From contig JAJDET010000366.1 in the NCBI GenBank assembly GCA_029259655.1, positions 1 to 64,000 of the forward strand: 64,000 nucleotides of DNA, read 5' to 3'. Under the pieces are notes generated by a model. The model was not told the origin of the DNA. It saw nothing but the letters and a program-made list of their open reading frames with translations, and ran no database searches. Positions within the stretch are counted from its first letter, which is position 1; each line of letters starts with the position of its first letter. The position numbers and the translations under genes were made by a program. This document shows, piece by piece, positions 10,501 through 39,499 of the stretch. This stretch comes from Planctomycetota bacterium (lineage in GTDB: Bacteria; Planctomycetota; UBA1135; GCA-002686595).

Positions 10501-12126
10501 TCAGGGAGCGTCGACCGCACCGGCCTCGACGCCGCCCGTGCGGATCCGCCCCGCGAGATCGTCGAAGACCTCGTGCGCAGGAGCCCCCGAGCCGAGCAAC
10601 ACGCTCGCGATCGACGGCGTCGCGTCGTGGGCGACACCGTTCCAGGAGACGGACAGGAAGTCGCCCAGCCCCGTACCGGCCAAGTAGCCGGAGGCCCCCG
10701 TACCGCTCACCGAGCCGAAGGCGACGTTGCCGGAGACCGTGACGCCGCCCGAGCCCCCCGAGAAGAGGATCGCGTTGCTGTTCAGGCTGTAGCACGCGTT
10801 GTTCGCGAACGTCATCCCCGGCTTTCCATTCCAGTCGTTGAGCAGCGCAGCGCGGCCGGTGTTGACGAACGTGTTGTTGACCACGATCAGGTCGGTGACC
10901 GTGCCCTGGTGGTCACCGCTGTAGAAGGCGTTCAGGCCGTCGATCAGGACATTGTTCCGCACGATGGCCTCGCCCTGAACCTGCATCACGTTGTCGCCGG
11001 CGTTCCAGCAGACGTTGCGCTCGATGAGGTTCACGGGCATTCCGCCGGTCCCGTAGACCAGGATGCTCGGGTAGTTGGTGTCGTGGACGGTGTTCTCGGC
11101 GATCCAGCAGCCCCACGAGCCCTGCTTGACCTCGATCCCGTCTCCCTGCGAGCCGCCGCAGTCGTAGACGTGGTTCAGCGCGATCACGACGTTGTTAGCG
11201 ATCGGGCTCGCGAAGTTCCCGCCGATGTAGAACCCCTCGCCGGTGCCGCCCGTCGAGTGAACCTGGTTGCGCGTGAAGTACAGGAACGACGTCGGGACCG
11301 AGTTCGCGGCGATCGCGTTGTCGTTCATGTCGTGCACGTGGCACTGGTCTATCCAGACGTTCTGGCAGTCGTGCAGGCGGAGTCCGATGCTCCCGCCCGT
11401 GATCTCGATCCCGCGCATGACGACGTAGCGGCAGGCACCGCCCTGTCCCATGTTCACCGTGTTCTGGCTCGCGTTCGAGCGCGTGATCACCGGCGTCGCC
11501 CCCGGCGCCGCCACGATCCAGATCGGGTTTCCCGCCGTGCCGACCAGGCTGATGTCGAGCAGCGAGTCGATCGTGTACGTCCCGCTCCCGATCCGAAGCT
11601 CGTCGCCCGGTGACAGGGACTGGATCACGGTCTCGAGCGCCGCGCCGTTCTGGGCGGAGGTCTGGCCGAAATCGTAGTTGAACGGAATCGTCGTCAGAGG
11701 TCGTGCGGCGGACCACGGCGGGAAGTACTGCTCCGGACTGCCCGGCGCCACCGCGAGCGTCTCCTCGACCGACGGCAACCCCTCGCCGCCCGTACCGACG
11801 CTCGTCACGACGCAGTACAGATCTCCGCCGACCCCCGTCACCTGGTAGGGCGGCGCGGCGACCTGCACGAAGGGCTTCCCCGTCGGGTCGATGGCGGGCG
11901 TCTCGGCCCAGTACACGCGATAGGCCGTCGCGTCGACGACCGTCGGCCAATCGACGAGAACGTTGCCGTTCGCCGTCGTCAGCGCGAGCGACGTCGGCGC
12001 GGCAGGTCCGGCCGGCGACGGGCTCCCGGCCACAGCACCTCCCCCACCGCCCCCGCCGCCGCAGCCGGCGCAGCCGGCGAGTGCGATTCCAACGACGAGA
12101 CAACCGACGCGTGCGCGCTCGAGCAT
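10501..12126 (-). CDS. right-handed parallel beta-helix lipoprotein
   Basis: A 541-residue exported protein with a lipobox (ALAGC, followed by a second Cys and a Gly run), a fibronectin-III-like segment (about 45-140, with DWPTVVDATAYRVYW) and a beta-helix of about 22-residue turns rich in Asn, Gly and Val (for example NVVIALNHVYDC, WIAENTVHD, IVRNNVLIDG, LIVVNNTFVNTG, VTVSGNVAFG). This is the pectate-lyase/PbH1 fold used by polysaccharide lyases and cell-surface adhesins; no lyase catalytic set could be identified. The ATG at 12126 has GGAAAGGGAAG upstream; longer in-frame extensions lack a signal peptide. It is 64 bp upstream of the sigma-factor fusion on the same strand, so they may share a transcript. 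Confidence 0.87.
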   Translation of the reverse strand: MLERARVGCLVVGIALAGCAGCGGGGGGGGAVAGSPSPAGPAAPTSLALTTANGNVLVDWPTVVDATAYRVYWAETPAIDPTGKPFVQVAAPPYQVTGVGGDLYCVVTSVGTGGEGLPSVEETLAVAPGSPEQYFPPWSAARPLTTIPFNYDFGQTSAQNGAALETVIQSLSPGDELRIGSGTYTIDSLLDISLVGTAGNPIWIVAAPGATPVITRSNASQNTVNMGQGGACRYVVMRGIEITGGSIGLRLHDCQNVWIDQCHVHDMNDNAIAANSVPTSFLYFTRNQVHSTGGTGEGFYIGGNFASPIANNVVIALNHVYDCGGSQGDGIEVKQGSWGCWIAENTVHDTNYPSILVYGTGGMPVNLIERNVCWNAGDNVMQVQGEAIVRNNVLIDGLNAFYSGDHQGTVTDLIVVNNTFVNTGRAALLNDWNGKPGMTFANNACYSLNSNAILFSGGSGGVTVSGNVAFGSVSGTGASGYLAGTGLGDFLSVSWNGVAHDATPSIASVLLGSGAPAHEVFDDLAGRIRTGGVEAGAVDAP

Positions 12127-12281
12127 GCTTCCCTTTCCGCTTCCCGACTCCCGGAGACCGGAGCTGGATCGACGGTCGGCGACGGCTGAATTGAGCGGAG
12201 CGTGTAACGACTGAGCACGAACACGGGTTGACCCCTCACGAGGGAGAGCGGACGATCGTCGGGCGGAAAGCAATTCCGACC

Positions 12282-13457
12282 GTGGAATACGATCTCGTCG
12301 TCGTCGGAGCGGGGCCCGGAGGCTCGAACGCCGCGGCGGCAGCGCTCGCCGGCGGGCTCGAGGTCGCCCAGGTCGACCGCGCGCGGTTCCCGCGCATCAA
12401 GCCCTGCGCCGGCGGGCTCACGATCAAGGCCTGCGAGTCGCTCGCGCTCCCGCTCGAGCCCTCCCTGCGGTCGACCTTCCGCGCCTTCGAGTTCAACGCT
12501 TGGCGCGGGACGGAGCGTCGCTTCGGCTACCGGAGCCCGATCCTGAAGATGGTCCTGCGGCCGGAGTTCGACAACCACCTGGTCGAGCGCAACCGGACGT
12601 CGGATCGCTTCCGGTTCTTCGACGGCGAGCCCGTCGTCGCGATAGATCGCGATTCCGACCGCTTCGTCGTGCGCACGCCCGAGCGCGAGCTCGTCGCGCG
12701 GCAGCTCGTCGGCGCCGACGGCGCGAACGGCACGACCAACCGCCTGTTCCGGATCGCCTCGCCCAGGCGACGGGCTGTCGCCGTCGAGATCAACCTCTAT
12801 CGCGACCGCGCCCGGATCGAGCCGGAGCCCGTCCCCTGCTTCGACTTCGGCTTCCTCCCGCTCGGGTACGGCTGGATCTTCCCGAAGGACGACCACTGGT
12901 CGGTCGGCCTGTACGCCCTGTCGGCGAGCGGCGTCGATCTCCGCGCTCGGCTCGCGGAGTACGTCGAGGCCCGCGGCTTCGACGTCGACGGCGATCCGCT
13001 CGACACGTTCGAGGCCCACACGATCCCGCTCGGCGGCCACCGCCTCGCCGTCCCCGACGAGCCGGTCTACGTCGTGGGCGACGCCGGCGGCTTCGCGGAC
13101 GCGCTCACCGGCGAGGGCATCTTTCACGCGCTCGAGAGCGGCAGGCTCGCGGGCGAGACGGCCATCCGGGTCGCGCGGGGCGAGGCGAAGCCGCGGGCCT
13201 ACTACCGCAGTCTCTGGCGGCGAGTCCTGCCCGACACCTTCCTCACGCACCACCTGGCCGACCGCTTCTATCGCGATCCGGCGCGCAGCCTCGCGTGGCT
13301 CGCGAAGCCGGTGCTCTGGCGACCGATCGTTCACGGCTACGGTCGCGGAGCGACGGTCGTGGAGTCGCTCGTCCGCGGCCCGCTCTACTGGGCGACCTCG
13401 CTGATGCGGCGGACGACGTCGATCGTCGCGCGCACGCGGCCGACGAGGTCGGCGTAG
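12282..13457 (+). CDS. geranylgeranyl reductase-like FAD-dependent oxidoreductase
   Basis: About 391 residues. The N-terminus is a dinucleotide-binding fold (EYDLVVVGAGPGGSNAAAA) and the C-terminal FAD motif reads VYVVGDAGGFADALTGEGI, the hallmark of the geranylgeranyl/digeranylgeranylglycerophospholipid reductase (GGR) group, as is KPCAGGLT near residue 42. These enzymes reduce isoprenoid double bonds in lipids, quinones or chlorophyll side chains; the substrate here is unknown. The GTG at 12282 places the beta strand directly at the N-terminus and has a GGCGGAAAG about a dozen bases upstream; a TTG at 12228 would add 18 residues. The 3' end overlaps the 3' end of the convergent methyltransferase gene by 73 bp. 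Confidence 0.87.
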   Translation: MEYDLVVVGAGPGGSNAAAAALAGGLEVAQVDRARFPRIKPCAGGLTIKACESLALPLEPSLRSTFRAFEFNAWRGTERRFGYRSPILKMVLRPEFDNHLVERNRTSDRFRFFDGEPVVAIDRDSDRFVVRTPERELVARQLVGADGANGTTNRLFRIASPRRRAVAVEINLYRDRARIEPEPVPCFDFGFLPLGYGWIFPKDDHWSVGLYALSASGVDLRARLAEYVEARGFDVDGDPLDTFEAHTIPLGGHRLAVPDEPVYVVGDAGGFADALTGEGIFHALESGRLAGETAIRVARGEAKPRAYYRSLWRRVLPDTFLTHHLADRFYRDPARSLAWLAKPVLWRPIVHGYGRGATVVESLVRGPLYWATSLMRRTTSIVARTRPTRSA

Positions 13458-15616
13458 CTCGCGAGGTCGTCCGCGGTGAGCTCGCGGCCGGCGCGGTCCT
13501 TCTTCCACTTGCGCGCGGGCGCGTAGGCGCCGATCCGGAAATCCAGCACCTCGGGAGGGACGTCTGCCTGTCTCGCGACGGGAGTGTCTCCGAGGTGCAC
13601 GCCGAGCAACTCCCGCCCGAGTGCCGCGAACGCCCGGAACTGCCGCGCATCGCGCGGCGGCGGGATGCGCGGGAAGTCGACCGCGAGCTCGTCCTCGTGC
13701 TTCGCGCGATAGCCCGGTGCGTGGAGCACGGCGTAGACGTACGCGAGGAGGTCGGGCGCGGGTGTGTCCGCGTCGGGAACGATGCGCCGTGCCTGGTCGG
13801 CGTCCACGTTGGGCACGAGCGGACCGTCCCCTTCCCCCACGAGGAGTGGGAAGCAGTGCGATCGCTCGCGGCTCCGGTTCGAGATCAGGTTGTCGTCGAC
13901 GAGCCGGCGGGAGGCGAACACGTGCCGCCAGGGCGGCGCGGCGAGCTGGCGGCAGACGACGAGGGCGACGTTCTTGACACCGTCGAGGTGTCGCATGAGC
14001 CTCCGCCGATCGCAGAAGACGAGCGCGCGGTGGTAGAGGATGCGGCGCGTGTCGAAGGGTCGGTAGGCGTAGTCGCGCAGGCTGAGGTCGAGGTCCGGTG
14101 CCTCCCGGAACCGCTCTCGCGCGCGCTCGAGCTTCCAGCCGGCGTTGTCGCGAATGCGGAGCCGCGCGCGCAGGTCGTCCACGGACTCGTGCGGATCGAG
14201 GAGCAGCGCGGCCCGCTCGCGCAGCGGCGCGTCGTCGAAGTCGACGACGAGCCGGTCGTGCGCGGTGACGATCCCGGAGACGGAGCGCGGGAAGAGCTCG
14301 GCGAGACCGGGCCACGACGCGTACTCGGGAGACGCACGCCTGCGCGGCACGAAGAACCAGCTCGGCGAGGTCGGCCGGATCTCGTGCGTGGCGAGGTCCT
14401 GTGCGGTCCCGTCCGCGAGACGGTCGAGCTTCTCTCGCCGTGTCCCGGAGAGGCGACCGTGAGTCACGCAGCTCCGGACTCCGGGCACGCGCGAGCCGAG
14501 GACGACGGACGTCCCCTGGTCGATCCCGAACAGGCTCTCGTCGACGGCGGCGTCCTCGCGGCGGCGCAGGCGCGAGCCGGAGAGATCGAGGATCCAAAGG
14601 CGCGAGAAGGTCGCGCACAGGGACGCCCGCATCCCGCGCAGCGTACGCGCGTCGAGGTACCCGTTGCTGGTCACGAGCCCGACGACGCCCACTCCGGCCC
14701 GCTCGATCGCGAGCTCCGCCAGCCGGACGAACTTCACGTAGTCGTCCTGGAGGTGCATCTCGAGCCGCAGCGCGCCCTTCTCCACGACGCGCTCGCCTGC
14801 GGCGTGTTTGTAGGGCTCGACCAGCGCGCGCGCGGCCGGTTCGAGGTTCCCGGAGCGAATGGACCAGGGCGGGTTGCCGAGCACGACCGTCACGCCGGCG
14901 GGCCAGACCTCCGTCGATGTGAGCGGGTTCGCGCCGCGCAGATCGAAGGCGATGTCGGGCCCGTCGAGCTCCCGCATCACCCGTGCGAGGTTGGCGCGGG
15001 CCAGGGACCGCGGCGCGTCGAGCAGCTCGAAGCCGACCAGGCGCTCCGCGAGCTCCGTCGCCGCGAAGTCGCGCCAGTGCTCGCCGAGCGTCACCCGCAT
15101 CCGCCGCAGGACACTCGCCAGGAAGACACCGCTCCCGGTCGCCGGATCGACGATGCGCACGAACGCGCTGTCGGGATCGACGCCGCCGGGAATGTCGAAC
15201 CCGTGCCGCGCCGCGAGCTCCGCCCACGTCGTGCGGTCGGCCAGCCCGTCGGCGAGCCCGAGCTCCTCGCGGAGGGCGCGGTCCACGCCGGCGACGACGT
15301 GGTCGGCCAGCGGCGCCGGCGTCGTGTAGACGCCTCGCCGCGAGCGCCGTTCGATGTCGGCTGCCGCGATCAGGAGCTCGTGCGCCAGGAAGGCGGGCTC
15401 CGTCCCGGGGAAACGCTTCGCGAGATCGGTGCGGATCCGGTCGGGGTCCGCTCGCTCGAGCGCCGCCTCGAGCTCGGGCGAAGAGCAGGCTCGCTCACCC
15501 GGCGAGGTCAGCCACTCCGCGAGCGCAAGACAAGCGGCCTCGTCCGCCCCCCCCACTCGCGCGACCGCTCGTGCGAGCGCCAGCGCACTCCGGTGGGGCA
15601 GAGCTCGAGTCGGCAC
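13385..15616 (-). CDS. solitary N6-adenine DNA methyltransferase with C-terminal specificity domain (type ISP/IIG-like)
   Basis: A 743-residue protein. It has motif X (RRGVYTTPAPLADHVV, about 93-108), motif I (IVDPATGSGVFL, about 155-166) and the catalytic motif IV NPPW (in VVLGNPPWSIRSGN, near 250). The C-terminal half, with FFVPRR, RPFDTRRILYH and the LISNRSRERSHCFPL block, matches the target-recognition part of type ISP restriction-modification enzymes. No nuclease or helicase domain precedes it and no separate restriction gene is adjacent, so it may act as an orphan methylase or be a remnant of a larger system. A GTG at 15616 fits the start of recognisable sequence. It is the last gene of the ABC-transporter/EEP operon, 59 bp after the EEP stop. 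Confidence 0.85.
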   Translation of the reverse strand: MPTRALPHRSALALARAVARVGGADEAACLALAEWLTSPGERACSSPELEAALERADPDRIRTDLAKRFPGTEPAFLAHELLIAAADIERRSRRGVYTTPAPLADHVVAGVDRALREELGLADGLADRTTWAELAARHGFDIPGGVDPDSAFVRIVDPATGSGVFLASVLRRMRVTLGEHWRDFAATELAERLVGFELLDAPRSLARANLARVMRELDGPDIAFDLRGANPLTSTEVWPAGVTVVLGNPPWSIRSGNLEPAARALVEPYKHAAGERVVEKGALRLEMHLQDDYVKFVRLAELAIERAGVGVVGLVTSNGYLDARTLRGMRASLCATFSRLWILDLSGSRLRRREDAAVDESLFGIDQGTSVVLGSRVPGVRSCVTHGRLSGTRREKLDRLADGTAQDLATHEIRPTSPSWFFVPRRRASPEYASWPGLAELFPRSVSGIVTAHDRLVVDFDDAPLRERAALLLDPHESVDDLRARLRIRDNAGWKLERARERFREAPDLDLSLRDYAYRPFDTRRILYHRALVFCDRRRLMRHLDGVKNVALVVCRQLAAPPWRHVFASRRLVDDNLISNRSRERSHCFPLLVGEGDGPLVPNVDADQARRIVPDADTPAPDLLAYVYAVLHAPGYRAKHEDELAVDFPRIPPPRDARQFRAFAALGRELLGVHLGDTPVARQADVPPEVLDFRIGAYAPARKWKKDRAGRELTADDLASYADLVGRVRATIDVVRRISEVAQ

Positions 15617-24118: not shown

Positions 24119-25966
24119 CTACTCTCCCAAGTACCCGAGCTCCCGCAACCTCTCCGCCAGCTCCGGACTGACATCCCCCGCCCCCGTCACATCCACCGCA
24201 TCCGGCCAGCACTCGCGACTCCACCACTCCGCGAGCGCGACGAGCTCGTCGTATTCCGGATGCGCCTCGGGGTCCAGGACGAGCTCCCGCTCCCCGGGGT
24301 CCTCGGAGACGTCGTACAGGACCGGCCCCCGCTCGCGCTTGAAGTCGCGGAAGAGCGCGACGTCCCGCGTGCGCACCGCGATGAGACCGTCGTAGGTCGA
24401 GAGGATCGTCCGGTCGGGCACCGCGCGCTCGAGCGCGAGGAGGCTCGTGCCGCGCAGCCCGGAGACCGGCTGCAACCCGAGCACGTCGACGACCGTCGGG
24501 AACAGATCGAGGTTCTGAACGGGAACCTCGGAGCGATGTGGTGCGACGCCGAAGCTCGCGGGAAAGCGTACGACCATCGGAACGCGAGTGACGTCCTGGT
24601 GCACGTTCGGGTGCGCGTGGCCGAAGTTGCCGCGGTCGAAGAACTCGTCTCCGTGGTCGGAGAAGAAGACGATCAGGCTCTCGTCGTAGAGCCCGTGCGC
24701 CTTCAGGTGGTCGAGGATCTCCCCCACGGCGTCGTCGGCGTCCTTGATGTCGCCGTCGTAGAGGTCGAGCAGGAACTGCAGGCGCTCGGGCGTGTCGGCG
24801 CGCTCCGCCTCCCACTTCTCGACCCGGTGGTAGGCGAGCAGCTCCTCGACCAGCCCGGTCGAGACCGGCGGGTTCGCCGGATCGAACTTCCCCCGGACGT
24901 ACTCGCCGTCGCGCAGGTAGGGCCAGTGCGGCTGCTCGATGTGTACGAAGAGGAAGAAGGGCCCGCCGGCGAGCTCGTCGATGGCCGCCTTCGCCCACTC
25001 CGCGATCTCGGCCGGCCGCGCATCCTCGACGAACTGGAGATAGCGGTCGATCCCCTGGTCCATCCGGAAGGAGAAGTCGAGGTTCGGGTTCTGGACGAAG
25101 GCGCGCGTCGCGTAGCCGGCGGCCTTGAGCGACTCTGCGAGCAGCGTGCGCGAGGTCCGCAGGCGCCGGATGTCGACCTCCCACCCCGGCACGCCGGCGA
25201 GCGTCGACATGTAGGACGGCCGCGTCCAGTTGTGGTTGCTGTAGGCGCGCTCGTAGAGCACGGCGTCCTTCGCGAGCGCGTCGACTGCGGGCGTCGTCTC
25301 GCGCTCGTAGCCGTAGCACGAGAGGTGGTCGGCGCGCGTCGAGTCCCAGGTGAGAAAGAGGACGGGGCGCCCGGTGTCGGACGGCCGCGCGGATTCCATG
25401 AGGCCCCAGGCCGCGACGAGGGCGACAGCGGCGACGGCGAGGAGGAACAGGCTCACGCGACGCAGCGCGCTCGCCCGGAAGCGCAGCCCCCCGCGCGCGA
25501 CGACGACTGCGAGGACGAGGCCGGCGAGGAGGATCGCGAGCGCGGGCCACACCGCGTCCGACGCGAGCCCGAGGTGCCGCACGCGCCAGAACAGGTTCGG
25601 GACCGCGAAGCCTTCCCGGACGCGCGCGACCGCCCAGCTCTCGGGCGCCTCGAGCACCGGGACGAGCCACGCCGCCTGGACCGCGCCGAGCAGGACGAGG
25701 ATTCCCGCGACCCGGCGTCCCCCGCTCCTGAACCATGCGGCGACCAGCGCACAGGGAACGCCGAGCGCGAGCGCTAGCGCGAAGCTCCGCGCGACCTCGC
25801 GCCAGACGTAGGACGCCGCGATGTAGCCGTCGTAGCCGTTCGCGTCGCCGATGGCGAGGCCGTTCCGCCACCCGCCGATCGCGGCCGCGGCCAGGAAGGG
25901 CGCGACGAGGGCGATCGCGACGGCGATGTGCCCGGGTGCCTCCCGCTCTCCGTTCCTTCCTTTCAT
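24119..25966 (-). CDS. polytopic membrane sulfatase-like hydrolase
   Basis: 615 residues. Five N-terminal membrane helices (about 13-31, 60-78, 86-104, 139-157, 171-189) precede a sulfatase-fold catalytic domain outside the membrane. Metal-site motifs are TWDSTRADHLSCYGYERETTP (Asp208, Asp213) and FFSDHGDEFFDRG. The nucleophile position reads NHNWTRPSYMS, with Thr248 in place of the Cys/Ser that is converted to formylglycine; this layout (membrane helices plus Thr nucleophile) is that of phosphoglycerol/phosphoethanolamine transferases and LTA synthase. It may modify a surface glycan or lipid rather than cleave sulfate esters. ATG at 25966; a longer open frame upstream lies antisense-like over the mannosidase gene and is not coding. 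It follows the mannosidase after 41 bp. Confidence 0.87.
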   Translation of the reverse strand: MKGRNGEREAPGHIAVAIALVAPFLAAAAIGGWRNGLAIGDANGYDGYIAASYVWREVARSFALALALGVPCALVAAWFRSGGRRVAGILVLLGAVQAAWLVPVLEAPESWAVARVREGFAVPNLFWRVRHLGLASDAVWPALAILLAGLVLAVVVARGGLRFRASALRRVSLFLLAVAAVALVAAWGLMESARPSDTGRPVLFLTWDSTRADHLSCYGYERETTPAVDALAKDAVLYERAYSNHNWTRPSYMSTLAGVPGWEVDIRRLRTSRTLLAESLKAAGYATRAFVQNPNLDFSFRMDQGIDRYLQFVEDARPAEIAEWAKAAIDELAGGPFFLFVHIEQPHWPYLRDGEYVRGKFDPANPPVSTGLVEELLAYHRVEKWEAERADTPERLQFLLDLYDGDIKDADDAVGEILDHLKAHGLYDESLIVFFSDHGDEFFDRGNFGHAHPNVHQDVTRVPMVVRFPASFGVAPHRSEVPVQNLDLFPTVVDVLGLQPVSGLRGTSLLALERAVPDRTILSTYDGLIAVRTRDVALFRDFKRERGPVLYDVSEDPGERELVLDPEAHPEYDELVALAEWWSRECWPDAVDVTGAGDVSPELAERLRELGYLGE

Positions 25967-26007
25967 GGACGCGCCGTCGGGGAAGATAGGGCCGCGGGCG
26001 CCCGACT

Positions 26008-29000
26008 TCACTCCTTCGTGAGCACCAGCTCGCCGAAGAGCGACGAGTCCTTCCCCCCCACCATGCCGCCGGTCCACTGCGTGGCGCCGCGGTAGCCCTC
26101 GCCGTCGTCGTCGTTGGCGATGTAGCTGAAGCCGAGCACGGCGCCGGGTTCGAGGGGCATGCGCGGGAGCAGGGAGCGGGGGATGACGAGCTCGTAGAAC
26201 GTCCGGCCGCCTGCGCGGGAGACGTCCACCTTCGCCTCGTCGAGGCGCCCGGTCCGGCCGGCCTCGCCGCCGTACCAGCACCAGACGAGCGGACCGTCCG
26301 GCGTGTGGGCGGCGCCGAACTCGAGGTCGCGCCCGCCGTAGCCGAAGTCGGCCGACGGCGCGGTGGTGAGCGCGAACTGCACCGAGTCGCCCTCCCAGAT
26401 CGTGCCGTCGGTGTGGGTCTGGCTCAGGGTCTCGTCCTCGACCACGAAGCACAGGGCGAGGCCGCTCGAGCCGTAGCGCACGGCGCACCGCACGCTCCCG
26501 AGCTCGCCCTCGGCGCGCGTGAACTCCGCGTCGTCCCAATCGACGATCAGGCCGTCCACGCGGATGTCCGCGAATGCGCGGCGCGCCGTCTGGACCGGCG
26601 CGACGGTGTAGGCGGCGGCGACGGCGCTTCCGTTCGGACCCGTAGCGCGCAGGCTCCCGCGCGTGCTCGCCTCGTCGGGCTCGACGTCGAAATCGACGGC
26701 GAGCGTGCGCAGACCGTCGGCGGCGTCGAAGCGGCGCGTGGCCTCGCGCACCGCGAAGCCGTCGGGGACTTCGAGCTCGAGCGGCGTGTCCGGTTCGATT
26801 CCCGTGAGGCTCGTCGCCCGAACTTGCACGCGGCTCGTCTCGCCGTGGCGCAGCCGCACGCGGTCGACGTCGAAGGTGAGGATCGACTTCCGGGGATCGC
26901 TCGTGATCGCGATCGTCTCGCCGTAGACGACCGTTCCGCCGAAGAGCACCTCGAGCATGGCCCAGTTGTCGAGTGCGAAGCCGAGCGGCGCGGTGAGCTC
27001 GAGCTCCCCCTGCGCAGGCACGACGACCTCGTGCGTCCAGTCCGGCACGGCGTCCCACATCGACATCGGAAGGAGCCAGCGCGCGGTGGCGGGGATCGGG
27101 CCGTCCGTGAGGTTCCTGACGACGGCGGAGAGCGCGTCGCCCTCGCTCACGATCGCCGTCGCGTTCGCGATCTCGATCACGGGCGCCTCGGAATCGGCAT
27201 CGGGTCCGGAGATCCAGACCGACGCAGTCACCGGACGAACGACACCGTGGCCGTCCGCCGTCAGCGTGAGGAGCGAGCGGCCGGTCGGTGCGCTCGAGAC
27301 CTCGAGGGTCGCCCGGCCGAACGAGGCGGCGGCGACCGCGAGGGTCGGCGGGTCGATCACGACGTCCATCTCCTCGGGCGCGAGCGCCGTCAGGTCGACC
27401 TCGACCTCGCGCGCGCGGTCGTTGTTGACGACGAGGAGCTCGATCGTCACGCGGCCGTCGGCGTGGACGACCTCGCGCGCGTCCGGCACGAGCGCGAGCA
27501 CGCCGTTCGCCGTGACGCCCTCGCCGCGGTTCTCGAGCCAGTAGGCGCTCGGTGCGACGTCGCCCTCGGTCGGATCGAGGCTCGGCGCGTCGGGGTCGCG
27601 CGGCGCGGGCGTGCCCTCGAGCAGGACGGTCTCGTAGGCGTGCGGTTCCATTGCGAAGAGCAGGACGCCGTCCTCGAGCGCGAGCGCCTCGCCCTCCTCC
27701 TCGAGCAGGTTCGAGCGCCACGCGCGCGTCGCGTCGAAGGCGAGGGTCCCGAGCTCGACGCGTGCCTCGGTCGCGCGACCCGTGCCGTTCCACAAGCGCA
27801 ACGCGACTCGCGTGGGCCGCTCGGGCGCGTCGGGCAGGCGCCAACGCGCTTCGGGAAAACCCGCGGGCTTGAGCGCGGCGACGGTCACGCCGGTCGGCGA
27901 GACTTCGAGGAACGAGGCGCTGGGCGGGAGGTCGCCCTCGTGAGCCTCGACGTCGCGCGCGACGAGCGGGTGCTGCACTTCCTGCGCGCGCGCGTTGAGC
28001 CCGAGATCCCGGTAGTCCCCCTCACCGGCGACGAGGCTGTAGCGGAAGACGTGGCTCCCGTGCATCGTCCCGAACGGCGCGCCGTCCGGCAGCCGCCGCG
28101 TCGGCGGATCCATCCACGTCCCCGACGGCCAGCTCGTGCAGCTGCGCAGGAGATTGAGGCCGAAGCGACCATCCTCGGTCGTGTGCACACTGATCGGCCC
28201 GCGGTTCACGAGCGCGAACGTTGGCGCGAATCGAGAGGCGGGATGAAGAGTCCAGGGGTTGTCGCCTTGGAGGATCTCTTCCAGGTAGTAGCCAAGCGAA
28301 CCGGATCCCGGACGGACGACAAGGGTCGGCAAGCTGTCATGGACCCTTCCGACGTTGCCGACCCAATCGATCTCGGAGTGATCGTGGCCAAGAGAGTGGA
28401 GGATCTCTCGTTCGTCTCGGGCGAGCACGACGCGAAAGTCGGGGAGATTGGAATCGTATTCGAGGGTTCCGTAACGGCGCCCGACGTCGTGCGTGATCGT
28501 TGTCGTCGCCCCCAGCCCAACCAGGACTCCGGCAAGACGATTCGCCTGGGACAGCAGCTCTCTTGAAGCGTCGGCATCGATGATGATCTCGGCCACGCTT
28601 CCGTCTACGCCGGGGCCCAAGGAACCGAACCCGGCCCACTGCCAGCACGTTTGGTCGAGCGTCCAAGGGTCCTTCGCTGTGTCCACGTCACGCCCGAATG
28701 GTCGTCCGATCACGGCCGCCGCCGTCTGGAAGATGGGCTTCATCCGACCTCGGCCCTCCAGATCGAACGGGAACTCGACCCGCAACAGCTGATTGCGTCC
28801 CTTCCAGTCGAGGATGTGCGTCTCGAAGTCGACTCGCGCCACTCCGGGTAGAAGCTCGATGACCTGACGCTTTCGGAACTCCGGGTACTCGGCTTCGACA
28901 ACGAGTCGGTGCGGATGGTCTGGATCGGGGGGGAGAAGCCGGGCCGTCACCCCGGTGCCGTCACGCTTCTTGCCGGTCGGCGCCAGATGCCAGGGCCCTT

Positions 29001-31005
29001 CGCCGTGACCGGGCAAGACGGCGTATTCCTCGTGAACTACGAGGTCGTTTGCCGGTCCGAGCAAGAGCCCACGACCGCTCCGCAGTTCGACCAAGCTGCG
29101 GATCGTTCCGCCCTTCTCGAGGTCGAGCTCCACTCGAAAGTGCTCGTTGACGAGGACGACCCCGTCGACCGTCGTGGAACCGTCCTCCACGCTCGCGAGC
29201 GGCGCGAAGCCGAGCGCCGGGACCGGCGCGCCCTGACTGACCTTTCGGCCGTCCGCGGTCTCAGCCCAGCCGCGGCGCGGCCCTGCGGTGGCGTTCCAGA
29301 CGACGCCACGGGCTCCGCGGGTGTCGATCCGGCTCTCGAGGTAAGCCAGCGAGCGCTCGCGCACCTCTTCGGCGAGCTCCAGCGCGTCGCGATAGCCCGC
29401 CATCACGTCCACGTAAACCTGGTCCGACATCGAGCCCGTGATGCCGTCGTGGTGGGCGTTGAAGAGGAGCTGGCGCCAGGCGCGGTCGAGCGCGAGCGAG
29501 GGGTAGTCAGCGCCCTGGACCGCTGCGACCGTGGCCCAGATCTCCGCCTCGCGCAGGGTCGTCTCGCACTCCCGGTTGGCGAGCTTGAGGTCGACGAACG
29601 ACACCGCGCAGCCCGTGTAGATCGGGTTCATGTCGCGCGTGATCACGGTCGGGACGATGCCCTTCGCGTCGATCTCCTCGCGCACGGCACGGAAGAAGTC
29701 CGCGCTCGTGTCGAGCACCGCCCGCGGCGAGACGTACTTCGCGTTCCAGGCCCGCACGACCTCGCCCAGGTTCTCGAGCGGCCGCACGAAGTCCATGTGC
29801 ATCGGGAAGAGCACGTGGTGCGTCAGCGCCGGGCGCTTCAGGTCCTCGAACATCGCCGCGATCAGCGCGTTCGTGATCTCCGGGTCGTCCGAGGCGCGGT
29901 TCGAGCCGTTCGCGAACTTCGCGTAGGCATAGCCGTAGTGCCCCGTCATGTAGTGCGTGAGCACCGACTCGCCGTCGGGCGACATCCACAGGAACTCGCT
30001 CGGGAAGTTGACCTGGTCGCGCGGCGCTCCCCACTGGTGGAAGGGACCGCGGGCGAAGGCGCCGGAGGTGTGACCGCTGCGCGCCATCAGGCTCGGGAAC
30101 GACGGGTCGTGGCCGAAGACGTCGCACTGCCAGAACGTCTCGCCGCTCCCGCCCAGCACCTCGCGCTGGAAGAGCACCCCGTAGGCCGCGTTGCGCGCGA
30201 CGGCCTCGGCCGAGACGAGCGTCGTCGAGAGCTCGTTGTAGGTCCCGCCGACGGCGCCGACGCGTCCCTCGGCCACGTACTCGAGCAGCCGCTCCCCCTG
30301 CTCCGGCCGCGCCTCGAGGAAGGTCTTCAGGTACGGGAGCTGGTGCATCGCGACGCGGTAGTCCGGGTCGTCCTCGCAGCGCGCGAGGTACTGCTCAACG
30401 AGCTCGAGCCCCGGGCCGACGTGCGCGTCCATGAAGCGCCCGGTCTCGGTGTAGTGCGCCTGCGTATTCCACCAGACCGGGTCGTAGTGGAAGCCCGGCA
30501 CGAAGTGCATCACCCAGTCGGTGTCCGGGCGGGAGTAGGCGACCTGGCGCTCGTACCAGACCTCTCCGTCGCGGAGGGCAAGGGTCACCAGGCGCCGCTC
30601 GACGCCAAGGGGAAGCGGAACCGGGATGTCCAGGGTCGCCGCGTCGGCCGACATCCGGTACGTGAAGTCGGGCGAGACGAGGATCGGATAGACCGACACG
30701 AACGGGGCGGTGTCCCCACCGATGTACCCGGACTCCTGCGGGCGGGTATCGAGGACTCTCGCCGGTCTGGGCTCGGCGTCGACCTCCTGCACGACGTCGA
30801 GGCAGACGACCGGCGTTCCCTCGACGGGCCTCGTCAGCCGGAGCCGGAGCACGGCGGACGGACTCTCCGCCGGCCCGAGCACCAGCGACGTCTCCTCGAC
30901 CTCGAACGGGAAGCCCTCGACCTTCGTCGCGGCGTCGCCGCCGTCGTCGAGGTATTCCTCCTGCGGGGTGAACGCGAGCGCGACCAGTAGGACGCAGACC
31001 GACAT
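26008..31005 (-). CDS. large secreted GH38-type alpha-mannosidase with C-terminal CBM9-like domain
   Basis: 1665 residues, well over the usual 850-1050 of GH38 enzymes. A short signal peptide (MSVCVLLVALAFTPQ) is followed by an N-terminal beta domain and the GH38 catalytic region from about residue 165: PGFHYDPVWW (zinc ligands His173, Asp175), WQCDVFGHDP (nucleophile Asp295) and FNAHHDGITGS (zinc ligand His, near 515). Large beta-sandwich domains fill about 600-1470, and the last 180 residues (from about FADIRVDGLIVDWDDAEF) look like a family-9 carbohydrate-binding module. Expected to act on alpha-mannosides of algal or fungal glycans in the periplasm or outside. The ATG at 31005 was preferred to a GTG one codon earlier. 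Codon use in the middle differs sharply from the flanks (see findings). Same strand as the sulfatase-like gene, possibly one polysaccharide-utilisation operon. Confidence 0.9.
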   Translation of the reverse strand: MSVCVLLVALAFTPQEEYLDDGGDAATKVEGFPFEVEETSLVLGPAESPSAVLRLRLTRPVEGTPVVCLDVVQEVDAEPRPARVLDTRPQESGYIGGDTAPFVSVYPILVSPDFTYRMSADAATLDIPVPLPLGVERRLVTLALRDGEVWYERQVAYSRPDTDWVMHFVPGFHYDPVWWNTQAHYTETGRFMDAHVGPGLELVEQYLARCEDDPDYRVAMHQLPYLKTFLEARPEQGERLLEYVAEGRVGAVGGTYNELSTTLVSAEAVARNAAYGVLFQREVLGGSGETFWQCDVFGHDPSFPSLMARSGHTSGAFARGPFHQWGAPRDQVNFPSEFLWMSPDGESVLTHYMTGHYGYAYAKFANGSNRASDDPEITNALIAAMFEDLKRPALTHHVLFPMHMDFVRPLENLGEVVRAWNAKYVSPRAVLDTSADFFRAVREEIDAKGIVPTVITRDMNPIYTGCAVSFVDLKLANRECETTLREAEIWATVAAVQGADYPSLALDRAWRQLLFNAHHDGITGSMSDQVYVDVMAGYRDALELAEEVRERSLAYLESRIDTRGARGVVWNATAGPRRGWAETADGRKVSQGAPVPALGFAPLASVEDGSTTVDGVVLVNEHFRVELDLEKGGTIRSLVELRSGRGLLLGPANDLVVHEEYAVLPGHGEGPWHLAPTGKKRDGTGVTARLLPPDPDHPHRLVVEAEYPEFRKRQVIELLPGVARVDFETHILDWKGRNQLLRVEFPFDLEGRGRMKPIFQTAAAVIGRPFGRDVDTAKDPWTLDQTCWQWAGFGSLGPGVDGSVAEIIIDADASRELLSQANRLAGVLVGLGATTTITHDVGRRYGTLEYDSNLPDFRVVLARDEREILHSLGHDHSEIDWVGNVGRVHDSLPTLVVRPGSGSLGYYLEEILQGDNPWTLHPASRFAPTFALVNRGPISVHTTEDGRFGLNLLRSCTSWPSGTWMDPPTRRLPDGAPFGTMHGSHVFRYSLVAGEGDYRDLGLNARAQEVQHPLVARDVEAHEGDLPPSASFLEVSPTGVTVAALKPAGFPEARWRLPDAPERPTRVALRLWNGTGRATEARVELGTLAFDATRAWRSNLLEEEGEALALEDGVLLFAMEPHAYETVLLEGTPAPRDPDAPSLDPTEGDVAPSAYWLENRGEGVTANGVLALVPDAREVVHADGRVTIELLVVNNDRAREVEVDLTALAPEEMDVVIDPPTLAVAAASFGRATLEVSSAPTGRSLLTLTADGHGVVRPVTASVWISGPDADSEAPVIEIANATAIVSEGDALSAVVRNLTDGPIPATARWLLPMSMWDAVPDWTHEVVVPAQGELELTAPLGFALDNWAMLEVLFGGTVVYGETIAITSDPRKSILTFDVDRVRLRHGETSRVQVRATSLTGIEPDTPLELEVPDGFAVREATRRFDAADGLRTLAVDFDVEPDEASTRGSLRATGPNGSAVAAAYTVAPVQTARRAFADIRVDGLIVDWDDAEFTRAEGELGSVRCAVRYGSSGLALCFVVEDETLSQTHTDGTIWEGDSVQFALTTAPSADFGYGGRDLEFGAAHTPDGPLVWCWYGGEAGRTGRLDEAKVDVSRAGGRTFYELVIPRSLLPRMPLEPGAVLGFSYIANDDDGEGYRGATQWTGGMVGGKDSSLFGELVLTKE

Positions 31006-31020
31006 CACCGCCAGCCTACC

Positions 31021-31060
31021 GAAACAAGAAGACCCCGCGGCCTTGCGGCGCCGCGGGGTC
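31021..31060 (-). terminator. intrinsic terminator of the ferredoxin gene
   Basis: GACCCCGCGGC at 31031-31041 pairs perfectly with GCCGCGGGGTC at 31050-31060 (11-bp stem, 8-nt loop). Read on the minus strand, the stem is followed at once by TTCTTGTTTC (31030-31021). It lies 23 bp past the fdxA stop and 15 bp before the mannosidase start, so it separates the two transcripts. Confidence 0.85.
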
Positions 31061-31083
31061 CTGATCGTTCGCGTGCGGAGGCC

Positions 31084-31422
<339 letters not shown>

Positions 31423-31447
31423 CTTTGAATTCCTTTCGGGCGGGGAT

Positions 31448-31476
31448 TCTATACTCGCCCCCCCCCGGACGATCAA
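31448..31476 (-). promoter_or_regulatory. sigma70-type promoter of fdxA with a poly-C/G spacer
   Basis: On the minus strand TTGATC (31476-31471) and TATAGA (31453-31448) are separated by 17 bp, and the -10 box is 25 bp from the ATG. The spacer contains nine consecutive C (plus strand 31458-31466). Match and spacing are good, but activity is inferred. Confidence 0.6.
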
Positions 31477-31483
31477 CGGCGGC

Positions 31484-32077
31484 TCAAGCCTTCTTGCCGC
31501 GACCGCGCGCCGAGGACTTCTTGGTCCCGCTCGCCGCGACTTTTTTCTTCGCGGGAGCCTTCTTCTTCTCGACCGCCGGGCGCTTCTTCGGCTCGAGGAC
31601 CTTGCTCGGCGCCGCCCCCCCGACCATCGGGGCCCCTGTGATCGCGTTCAGCGTCCGCGCGAGCTCGTCCGCGAGGGCGTGCCGCTCCTTGTCGCTCTTC
31701 GCGGCACCAGCGGCCCGGGCCAGGTCCGCGACCCCGATCGCTCCCACGAGCCGGCCGGACTCGTCGACCACCGGCAGCCGGCGGACGCGGGTCGACGCCA
31801 TCAGCGCGGCCGTGGTCAGGAGGTCCTCGCCGGGCTTCACCGTCTTCGGGTTCCGGCTCATCGTCTCGGACACGGGGATCTCGGTCAGGGGGGACCCGCG
31901 GAAGTGGGCGCCGATGCACACGTCGCGGTCCGTGATCGTCCCCACGAGCTGCTCGCGCGAGTCGACGACCGGGAGCCAGCCGCGGTCGTTCGCCCAGAAG
32001 TGCCCTGCGACATCGTTCAGGTTCTCGTCGACGCGGCACGTGTGCACCGCGGACGCCATCCAGTCTCCAACCTTCAT
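31484..32077 (-). CDS. CBS-domain protein with lysine-rich C-terminal tail
   Basis: 197 residues. Two CBS motifs (about 5-60 and 72-128) form one Bateman module (for example [15 protein letters not shown] and [18 protein letters not shown]), which usually binds adenine nucleotides. From about residue 150 the protein changes to a Lys/Ala/Pro tail ([18 protein letters not shown]) like those of histone-H1-like or AlgP-type proteins, which suggests nucleic acid or polyanion binding. ATG at 32077 with GAGGTAGC upstream. It is upstream of fdxA on the same strand, 61 bp apart, and divergent from the USP gene at 32245. Confidence 0.88.
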
Positions 32078-37800: not shown

Positions 37801-38304
37801 CTAGAGCTTCTCGGCCAGGAAGCGGACGACGTCGAAAGCGGAGACGATTCCGACGAGTCGGTTTTTCTCGACGACCAGCAAGCGGTGGACACGGCTCTCC
37901 ACCATCTTCTTGCCGAGCTCGCCCAGGGTCGTGTCGGGATCGACGCTGAGGATGGAGGGGTTCATCCAGTCTCGTACGGTCTTCCCGTCGAGGACGCGCG
38001 GACTGTAGTCGCTCGTCGAGGGCACGTAGTCCTCTTCGTCGAAAGGGACTCCGACGTCGGCGAGCTCGTACTCGTGCCGCTCGCCATCCAGCCGGCCCTC
38101 CCGGATGTGCTCCGTCCGGGCGATGTCCCGTGCGGACAGGATCCCGACGAGCCGGCCCGCGTCGATGACGGGTGCCCCGCTGATCCGGTTCTCCTCGAGG
38201 ATCTCGATCGCTCGCTCGATCGCCAGATCGGCATCGAGCTGGACGACCTTCGCCTGCATCAGGTCACGTGCGGTCGCACGCGTCAGTTCAGTCTCGACCT
38301 TCAT
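37801..38304 (-). CDS. CBS-domain pair protein
   Basis: 167 residues: CBS1 about 12-70 (ISGAPVIDAGRLVGILSARD), a 40-residue linker rich in acidic residues (FDEEDYVPSTSDYS) and CBS2 about 105-165 (VHRLLVVEKNRLVGIVSAFD). The long linker between the motifs is the layout seen in bacterial CBS proteins of about 16-18 kDa. ATG at 38304 with AGGAGG 8 bases upstream. The stop codon lies inside the palindrome CTCTAGAATCTAGAG (37792-37806). Divergent from the USP gene at 38576. Confidence 0.9.
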   Translation of the reverse strand: MKVETELTRATARDLMQAKVVQLDADLAIERAIEILEENRISGAPVIDAGRLVGILSARDIARTEHIREGRLDGERHEYELADVGVPFDEEDYVPSTSDYSPRVLDGKTVRDWMNPSILSVDPDTTLGELGKKMVESRVHRLLVVEKNRLVGIVSAFDVVRFLAEKL

Positions 38305-38444
38305 CTTGGTCCTCCTCGGGGTCATCGAGCCGCTGCATTCCGGGCAGCTGAGCTCACTCGCGAGGGCCGCTGCCCCTACGGAGAGACTAGTTCGTGGCCG
38401 AAGCCACCGCGCAGCGCCCGACTTCGCATTCGGCGGAGCGAGAG

Positions 38445-38501
38445 GTGCGTATGCGGACCCTGCGCGTCGACCGCACTCGGCGCGAAGCGAGTACGTACTC
38501 G
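38445..38501. promoter_or_regulatory. candidate regulatory elements upstream of the USP gene
   Basis: GTGCGTA at 38445-38451 and a perfect 14-bp palindrome CGAGTACGTACTCG at 38488-38501 lie in the 271-bp divergent region, the palindrome 74 bp before the USP start codon. A further inverted repeat, GGGCAGC/GCTGCCC (38342-38348 and 38369-38375), is nearer the CBS gene. Function inferred from symmetry and recurrence. Confidence 0.4.
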
Positions 38502-38575
38502 GGGGAACGTCCGACGACGTCTCCTGGCCTTACTATCAATCCGTACAGAGACCCTCGGAGCCAAGGAGGTCCCCC

Positions 38576-39499
38576 GTGGAACCCAAGAGAATCATCGTCG
38601 GAGTGGACGAAGGGGAGCTCGCGCAATACGCCGTCAGCACGGGAGTCGAGCTGGCGAACCGGTTCGGCGCAAAGCTCGAATTCGTTCACTGTGTCCCGCT
38701 CGAGAGTGAGGCCTGGGCGGCTGCTGCCGCCATCGACTGGTACGCCATCCGCACGGACGTTCTCGTCGATCGGCGCGAGCGCATCCTCGCGCAGCTGAAG
38801 GAGTGGTGCCCTGCGAGCCCCCGGATCGGTTCGCTCGACGACGCCCTGGTCATGCTCGACACGAGACCCAACCGCGCCATCGCGAAGTACGCGGCGGAGA
38901 AGGGAGCCGACCTGATCGTCCTCGGCGGGCATCGGAAGACCGGCATCTTCGACTTCGGAGGCACGGCCCGCGCCCTGCTTCACCACGCGCCTTGCGCGGT
39001 GTGGACGCAACCGTGTGCGCAGCGTGAGGTGAAGACGATCCTCGCACCGGTCGATCCGTCCGACATGAAGGACCGCACGCTCGAATGGCTACGGTGCCTG
39101 GCACAGGACGCAAAGTTGATCGTGATGAGCGTCTTCGAGCCGCCTTCCTTCGCCTACGAACCCTTCCAGGCCGGGCCGACCGGCCTCCCGATCAAGATCA
39201 TGCGAGAAGCCGTCGAGAAGCGCTTCGTCCAGTTCGTCGCGGATACGGACTGGGGCGGCTCCGATGTCGAGACCCTCTTCACGGAAGGCGATCCGGTCGA
39301 GGAGATCCTCGCCGCAGCGAAGTCCGTGGACCTCATCGCGATGGGAACGCACGGCCGCGGAGCCGTCGAGCGAGCCGTCCTGGGGAGCGTTGCCTACGGC
39401 GTGCTCAAGGGCGCCAAGTGCCCGGTGCTTGCCGTGCCGACGCGATCGGCGGACAGCCTGCTCTCCTCCGCGGACGAGACCGTCGGGGCCACGACCTAG
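38576..39499 (+). CDS. universal stress protein, tandem UspA domains
   Basis: 307 residues with two USP domains (about 5-145 and 152-298). The first begins KRIIVGVDEGELAQYAV and has VLGGHRKTGIFDFGGTARALL; the second has the full ATP-binding loop MGTHGRGAVERAVLGSVAYGVL. GTG start at 38576 after AAGGAGG. Upstream carries the palindromes listed at 38445. Convergent with the APH/ATPase fusion gene (5-bp gap). In the mycobacterial dormancy regulon a USP gene (Rv2005c) adjoins the same kind of fusion (Rv2004c), as here. Confidence 0.92.
   Translation: MEPKRIIVGVDEGELAQYAVSTGVELANRFGAKLEFVHCVPLESEAWAAAAAIDWYAIRTDVLVDRRERILAQLKEWCPASPRIGSLDDALVMLDTRPNRAIAKYAAEKGADLIVLGGHRKTGIFDFGGTARALLHHAPCAVWTQPCAQREVKTILAPVDPSDMKDRTLEWLRCLAQDAKLIVMSVFEPPSFAYEPFQAGPTGLPIKIMREAVEKRFVQFVADTDWGGSDVETLFTEGDPVEEILAAAKSVDLIAMGTHGRGAVERAVLGSVAYGVLKGAKCPVLAVPTRSADSLLSSADETVGATT

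Follow-up and report, generated by a model that had tools for sequence, protein, structure and literature searches.

GH38-family gene and its sulfatase neighbour

The window, a 64-kb stretch of DNA (64,000 bases), belongs to contig C297 (106,070 bases) of a draft genome whose 376 contigs add up to 6.41 Mb; it is 91% complete with 3.7% contamination and is probably metagenome-assembled. A GH38-family alpha-mannosidase-like gene lies on the minus strand at 26008-31008, and its reading frame of 1666 codons (1666 aa) runs without a single internal stop, confirming that the frame stays open as the first-pass annotation had reported. The assignment is based on the open reading frame list with its translation and on Pfam matches to all three GH38 domains: the N-terminal catalytic domain PF01074 (E-value 1.1e-40; 140.2 bits, above the cut-off of 25), the middle domain PF09261 (2.4e-20; 72.8 bits, above the cut-off of 31.1) and the C-terminal domain PF07748 (7.5e-8), matched at residues 620-752. 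The gene is single-copy, with one match in its own genome, and a paralogue was accordingly ruled out as a gene-conversion donor.

An AlphaFold2 structure prediction of residues 160-1160 gave a mean pLDDT of 66 and a pTM of 0.74. Even at this low mean pLDDT the model recovered the GH38 fold (Z 27.9 against 6lz1_A, 646 residues aligned, rmsd 4.3). Further fold matches were chain D of bovine lysosomal mannosidase (model residues 456-863), galactose mutarotase and PL26 lyases, and from the lysosomal mannosidase and mutarotase matches the super-sandwich domain of the enzyme is predicted at about residues 615-1022 (27943-29166, minus strand). The N-terminal, middle and C-terminal domains and the overall fold thus resemble those of GH38 alpha-mannosidases (PF01074, PF09261, PF07748; PDB 6lz1, 2wyh, 1o7d). 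Compared with the solved members, however, the protein is long (about 1666 aa), carries a long additional C-terminal part and shares only 11-20% sequence identity in structural alignments.

Directly downstream, a sulfatase reading frame (PF00884, 8.3e-40) adjoins the GH38 gene at 24119-26008 on the minus strand, its start not being fixed. It forms the lower part of a long open frame (24119-27844, minus strand) that overlaps the GH38 gene in a different frame, and only this part, from 24119 to about 26008, is gene-like. A role of the GH38 enzyme in the breakdown of sulfated or mannose-bearing glycans would fit such a neighbour. The gene is patchily distributed: in the class, 2 of 154 genomes carry it (this one and G047), and in a draw from the phylum 8 of 392 do, its own included. 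One further carrier, L009, came from the genome_contigs collection, in a record labelled Phycisphaerae.

A bounded low-GC3 block inside the GH38 gene

The first-pass annotation had described a block of about 1 kb with different codon use at 28140-29140. We scanned the gene for its best single segment of lowered GC3 and found it at codons 624-952 (28153-29139, minus strand), which agrees with that position to about 13 bases, and an in-frame recount reproduced exactly all 11 of the 20-codon GC3 counts on which the description had been built. GC3 is 0.742 inside the block and 0.939 outside it, with a log-likelihood ratio of 46.7 for the segment, whereas 100 codon shuffles gave no more than 10.6. 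When the gene was fitted with one to seven pieces, BIC selected three (1020.3, compared with 1083.5 for one piece and 1024.6 for four), with GC3 of 0.94, 0.74 and 0.94 and cuts after codons 621 and 954. Total G+C falls from 0.716 in the flanks to 0.634 in the block. The change is visible in single codons: arginine CGA accounts for 9 of 28 arginine codons in the block and 2 of 86 in the flanks, and histidine CAT for 4 of 13 and 0 of 26, respectively. With the codon choice of the flanks and the amino acids of the block itself, a GC3 of 0.934 would be expected where 0.742 is observed (z = -14.3), and amino-acid content is therefore ruled out as the cause of the dip.

Within 2 log-likelihood units, the upstream (5') junction falls anywhere in codons 563-645 (29074-29322, minus strand; best fit codon 624), whereas the downstream (3') junction is confined to codons 929-967 (28108-28224, minus strand; best fit after codon 952), so the left edge of the block is less sharp than the right. 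The alignment of the protein to its orthologues is unbroken across both junctions. In the predicted model the first strand of the super-sandwich marks the start of the block, which stops about 70 residues short of the end of the domain and covers its first four fifths. The earlier placement of the block between the catalytic and C-terminal regions hence needs refining, as the block takes in the PF07748 match (620-752) and most of the super-sandwich. The 3' junction lies in a conserved stretch, GLNLLRSCTSWPSG, which ranks at the 96th-97th conservation percentile among residues 557-1666. Such stretches are where homologous recombination would meet identity; the position of this junction is consistent with recombination without being telling.

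Orthologues lack the dip

GC3 was compared in eight full or near-full orthologues, which share 40-53% identity with the GH38 protein over the alignment, and in one partial orthologue (L015); L003-L008, L016 (the same gene as L017), L018 and L019 were left out as N-terminal-only or weak matches. The first-pass annotation had held that the same dip in orthologues would speak for selection on the domain, and the dip was absent from all nine. Block and flank values were 0.753/0.757, 0.778/0.789, 0.614/0.616, 0.864/0.853, 0.768/0.774, 0.927/0.904, 0.963/0.966 and 0.812/0.799 in the eight and 0.774/0.785 in L015, no difference exceeding 0.025; in this comparison the GH38 gene had 0.742/0.944. The dip is therefore specific to this lineage and not a property of the domain.

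We then related GC3 to conservation. In the block it was lowest, 0.675, at residues common to 6-8 of the eight orthologues, and reached 0.760 at residues common to 2-5 and 0.775 at those common to 0-1; across these classes the flanks ranged from 0.903 to 0.965. Since the most conserved residues of the block have the lowest rather than a high GC3, weaker constraint in a variable region was rejected as an explanation. The pattern points to a segment that took shape under a different codon regime.

Contrast within one gene stands out in the part of the genome scanned

To place the dip in its genomic context, a census was taken of 101 stretches totalling 1,262,788 bases of the 6.41 Mb, about a fifth of the genome; five of the stretches were all N. 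A simple gene caller, crude enough to have overlooked at least the sulfatase beside the GH38 gene, returned 615 genes after frames shorter than 200 codons or scoring below 15 were dropped, and the 543 genes of at least 250 codons were scanned for GC3. The best dip was interior in 143 of these, and the GH38 gene had the strongest interior dip of the 543 (47.2; second 29.3). This ranking excludes dips at gene 5' ends as probable wrong starts; with them counted in, 12 of the 543 genes exceed the value of the GH38 gene, and the sequences of two of the 12 (L061 and L083) were inspected. A 329-codon stretch with GC3 of 0.742 or less occurs somewhere in 9 of 356 other genes, six of which have a gene mean below 0.79. 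Thus, so low a value does occur elsewhere in the genome, and what is unusual is the contrast within one gene.

Two called genes in L083 (contig C153), at 11526-14138 and 14350-15258, have GC3 of 0.54 and 0.60 against a genome median of 0.90, and could be foreign DNA, contamination or miscalled frames. Elsewhere in the genome, two close paralogues of another family, putative TPR-CHAT proteins, both show an interior dip, located in their homologous linker region (L111:2-1996, plus strand, 0.79 vs 0.97; L119:1816-4710, plus strand, 0.76 vs 0.92). A more distant paralogue (L071:1-3594) is without an interior dip.

Ancestry of the block and search for a donor

Protein identity to the orthologues is 56-67% in the N-terminal part, 36-54% in the block and 33-47% in the C-terminal part, and none of them stands out in the block. 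Separate phylogenies of the three parts had been proposed as a check. Maximum-likelihood trees of nine sequences were built for residues 206-620, 624-952, 624-870 and 953-1664, and the GH38 protein took no settled position in any of them, so the trees speak neither for nor against recombination. Normalised to the spread among the other sequences, its distances to the orthologues were 0.90 and 0.85 in the flanks and 1.02 in the block, i.e., it is nearer to them in the flanks; L013, which has no dip, shows a like shift. Private changes were also in excess in the block (6/70 vs 5/229 in the flanks, Fisher p 0.02), but this was not taken as proof because dipless L013 matches it (6/70 vs 2/226).

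One orthologue, L002, has a GC3 of 0.75 and belongs to the one other genome of this order in which the gene was found, which makes a donor from that order possible. At the 142 block residues common to both, the GH38 gene and L002 have identical codons 75 times, where 55.6 were expected and none of 5000 permutations reached 75; for the other seven orthologues p ranged from 0.03 to 0.96. Among 36 pairs, the pair with L002 ranks highest for codon sharing in the block (z 3.8). However, the excess sits in G/C-ending codons (64 vs 46.6 expected) and not in the A/T-ending codons that make the dip (11 vs 8.3 expected), and L002 was one of eight comparisons, so the hint is weak. Protein identity in the block lends it no support, being 48% to L002 and thus not above that of the other orthologues. 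As the protein distances and the tree do not line up with the high synonymous sharing, L002 was kept only as a hint of the donor lineage. Per codon, the block was fitted slightly better by the low-GC3 genes of its own genome (log-likelihood -1.043) than by the best orthologue gene (-1.088).

The search for a donor found none in the prokaryote genomes drawn or in genome_contigs, nor in viral contigs or phages. A phage, viral or plasmid donor was accordingly rejected, the plasmids having yielded only distant Streptomyces-type genes. These distant relatives of the block, with 34-35% identity, lie at 77680-78420 of NZ_CP108122.1 and 1100045-1100860 of NC_016113.1.

Probable replacement of a segment and its alternatives

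We consider it probable, at roughly 65%, that the central block of the GH38 gene was replaced by a homologous segment from a relative of lower GC3. A bounded segment between equal flanks, far beyond what codon shuffles produce, supports this reading; the diffuse left edge and the slightly better fit of the block to low-GC3 genes of its own genome count against it. The first-pass annotation had likewise suggested recombination with a lower-GC relative, which, with the orthologues lacking the dip, stands as the best explanation, although its donor did not turn up in the search. In such an event, about 1 kb would have been swapped in frame, with no visible insertion or loss, for the matching segment of a homologous gene from a relative whose genes had a GC3 near 0.74. 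Homologous recombination, presumably gene conversion after DNA uptake, would have set in close to where the super-sandwich begins and left in the conserved stretch about 330 codons further on. The product would be a mosaic enzyme in which GH38 activity is expected to persist. That the exchange was close to a domain swap, in which most of the super-sandwich came from another lineage and was kept because it changed the cutting specificity of the enzyme, appears doubtful.

Equal flanks around a foreign middle are also what an assembly chimera would yield, if the assembler had joined the central part of an orthologue from a co-occurring species into the contig, and the fragmented, slightly contaminated draft described above leaves room for such an error. 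Yet this requires two joins 1 kb apart, each in frame, and no second copy of the gene was found in the bin. Moreover, exact DNA matches to any of eight orthologues extend over no more than 13 and 17 bases in the two junction zones (codons 600-650 and 925-970), shorter than common assembly k-mers, whereas matches elsewhere in the gene reach 35 bases. A join with a donor as distant as these orthologues is therefore unlikely; a closer donor outside the genomes sampled might have longer matches, and we regard a chimera as rather unlikely overall. We hold as unlikely, too, that codon choice changed locally in this lineage because selection at synonymous sites was relaxed or altered (through translation speed, mRNA structure or an overlapping or antisense element) and with no transfer at all. 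The codon use of the block does resemble that of low-GC3 genes of the same genome, and the dip common to the L111 and L119 paralogues indicates that interior dips can persist within a gene family here. In contrast, the dip of the GH38 gene is missing from every orthologue compared and GC3 is lowest just where residues are conserved. Structured RNA was rejected as a cause, Rfam at the gathering threshold giving no family match in 25500-31500, and so was an antisense gene over the block, because neither of the long antisense frames (26305-28566 and 28909-30990) spans it, both having an end within it. Selection maintaining the dip as a trait of the domain throughout the family would explain why the block starts at a domain edge, but the near-identical block and flank GC3 of the nine orthologues rules it out for those seen and makes it highly improbable in general.

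Replacement of a segment within a gene is a well-known and well-documented event in bacteria, and the present case is ordinary in kind. Introgression between Campylobacter coli and Campylobacter jejuni gives mosaic alleles, in which, as proposed here, an internal gene segment has another ancestry and comes from a related species; there both parents were sampled, at about 15% nucleotide divergence, whereas the GH38 segment is known from composition alone (PMC3139442). Within-gene lateral transfer was likewise described in E. coli and Shigella, where 678 of 5282 gene sets (12.8%) had breakpoints inside gene boundaries. There, breakpoints were obtained by phylogenetic methods across strains, while phylogenies of the GH38 block were uninformative (PMC3212841). 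The GH38 gene, a single case in which amino-acid content, conservation and domain type were checked as confounders, suggests that codon composition alone can flag the replacement of a segment even when no close relative has been sampled. A whole-gene tree of the GH38 gene would probably blend two histories.

Within the same window, a universal-stress-protein gene with two Usp stretches (38105-39496, plus strand) has a weak interior dip of its own at codons 89-207, with GC3 of 0.68 vs 0.87 and a log-likelihood ratio of 9.4.
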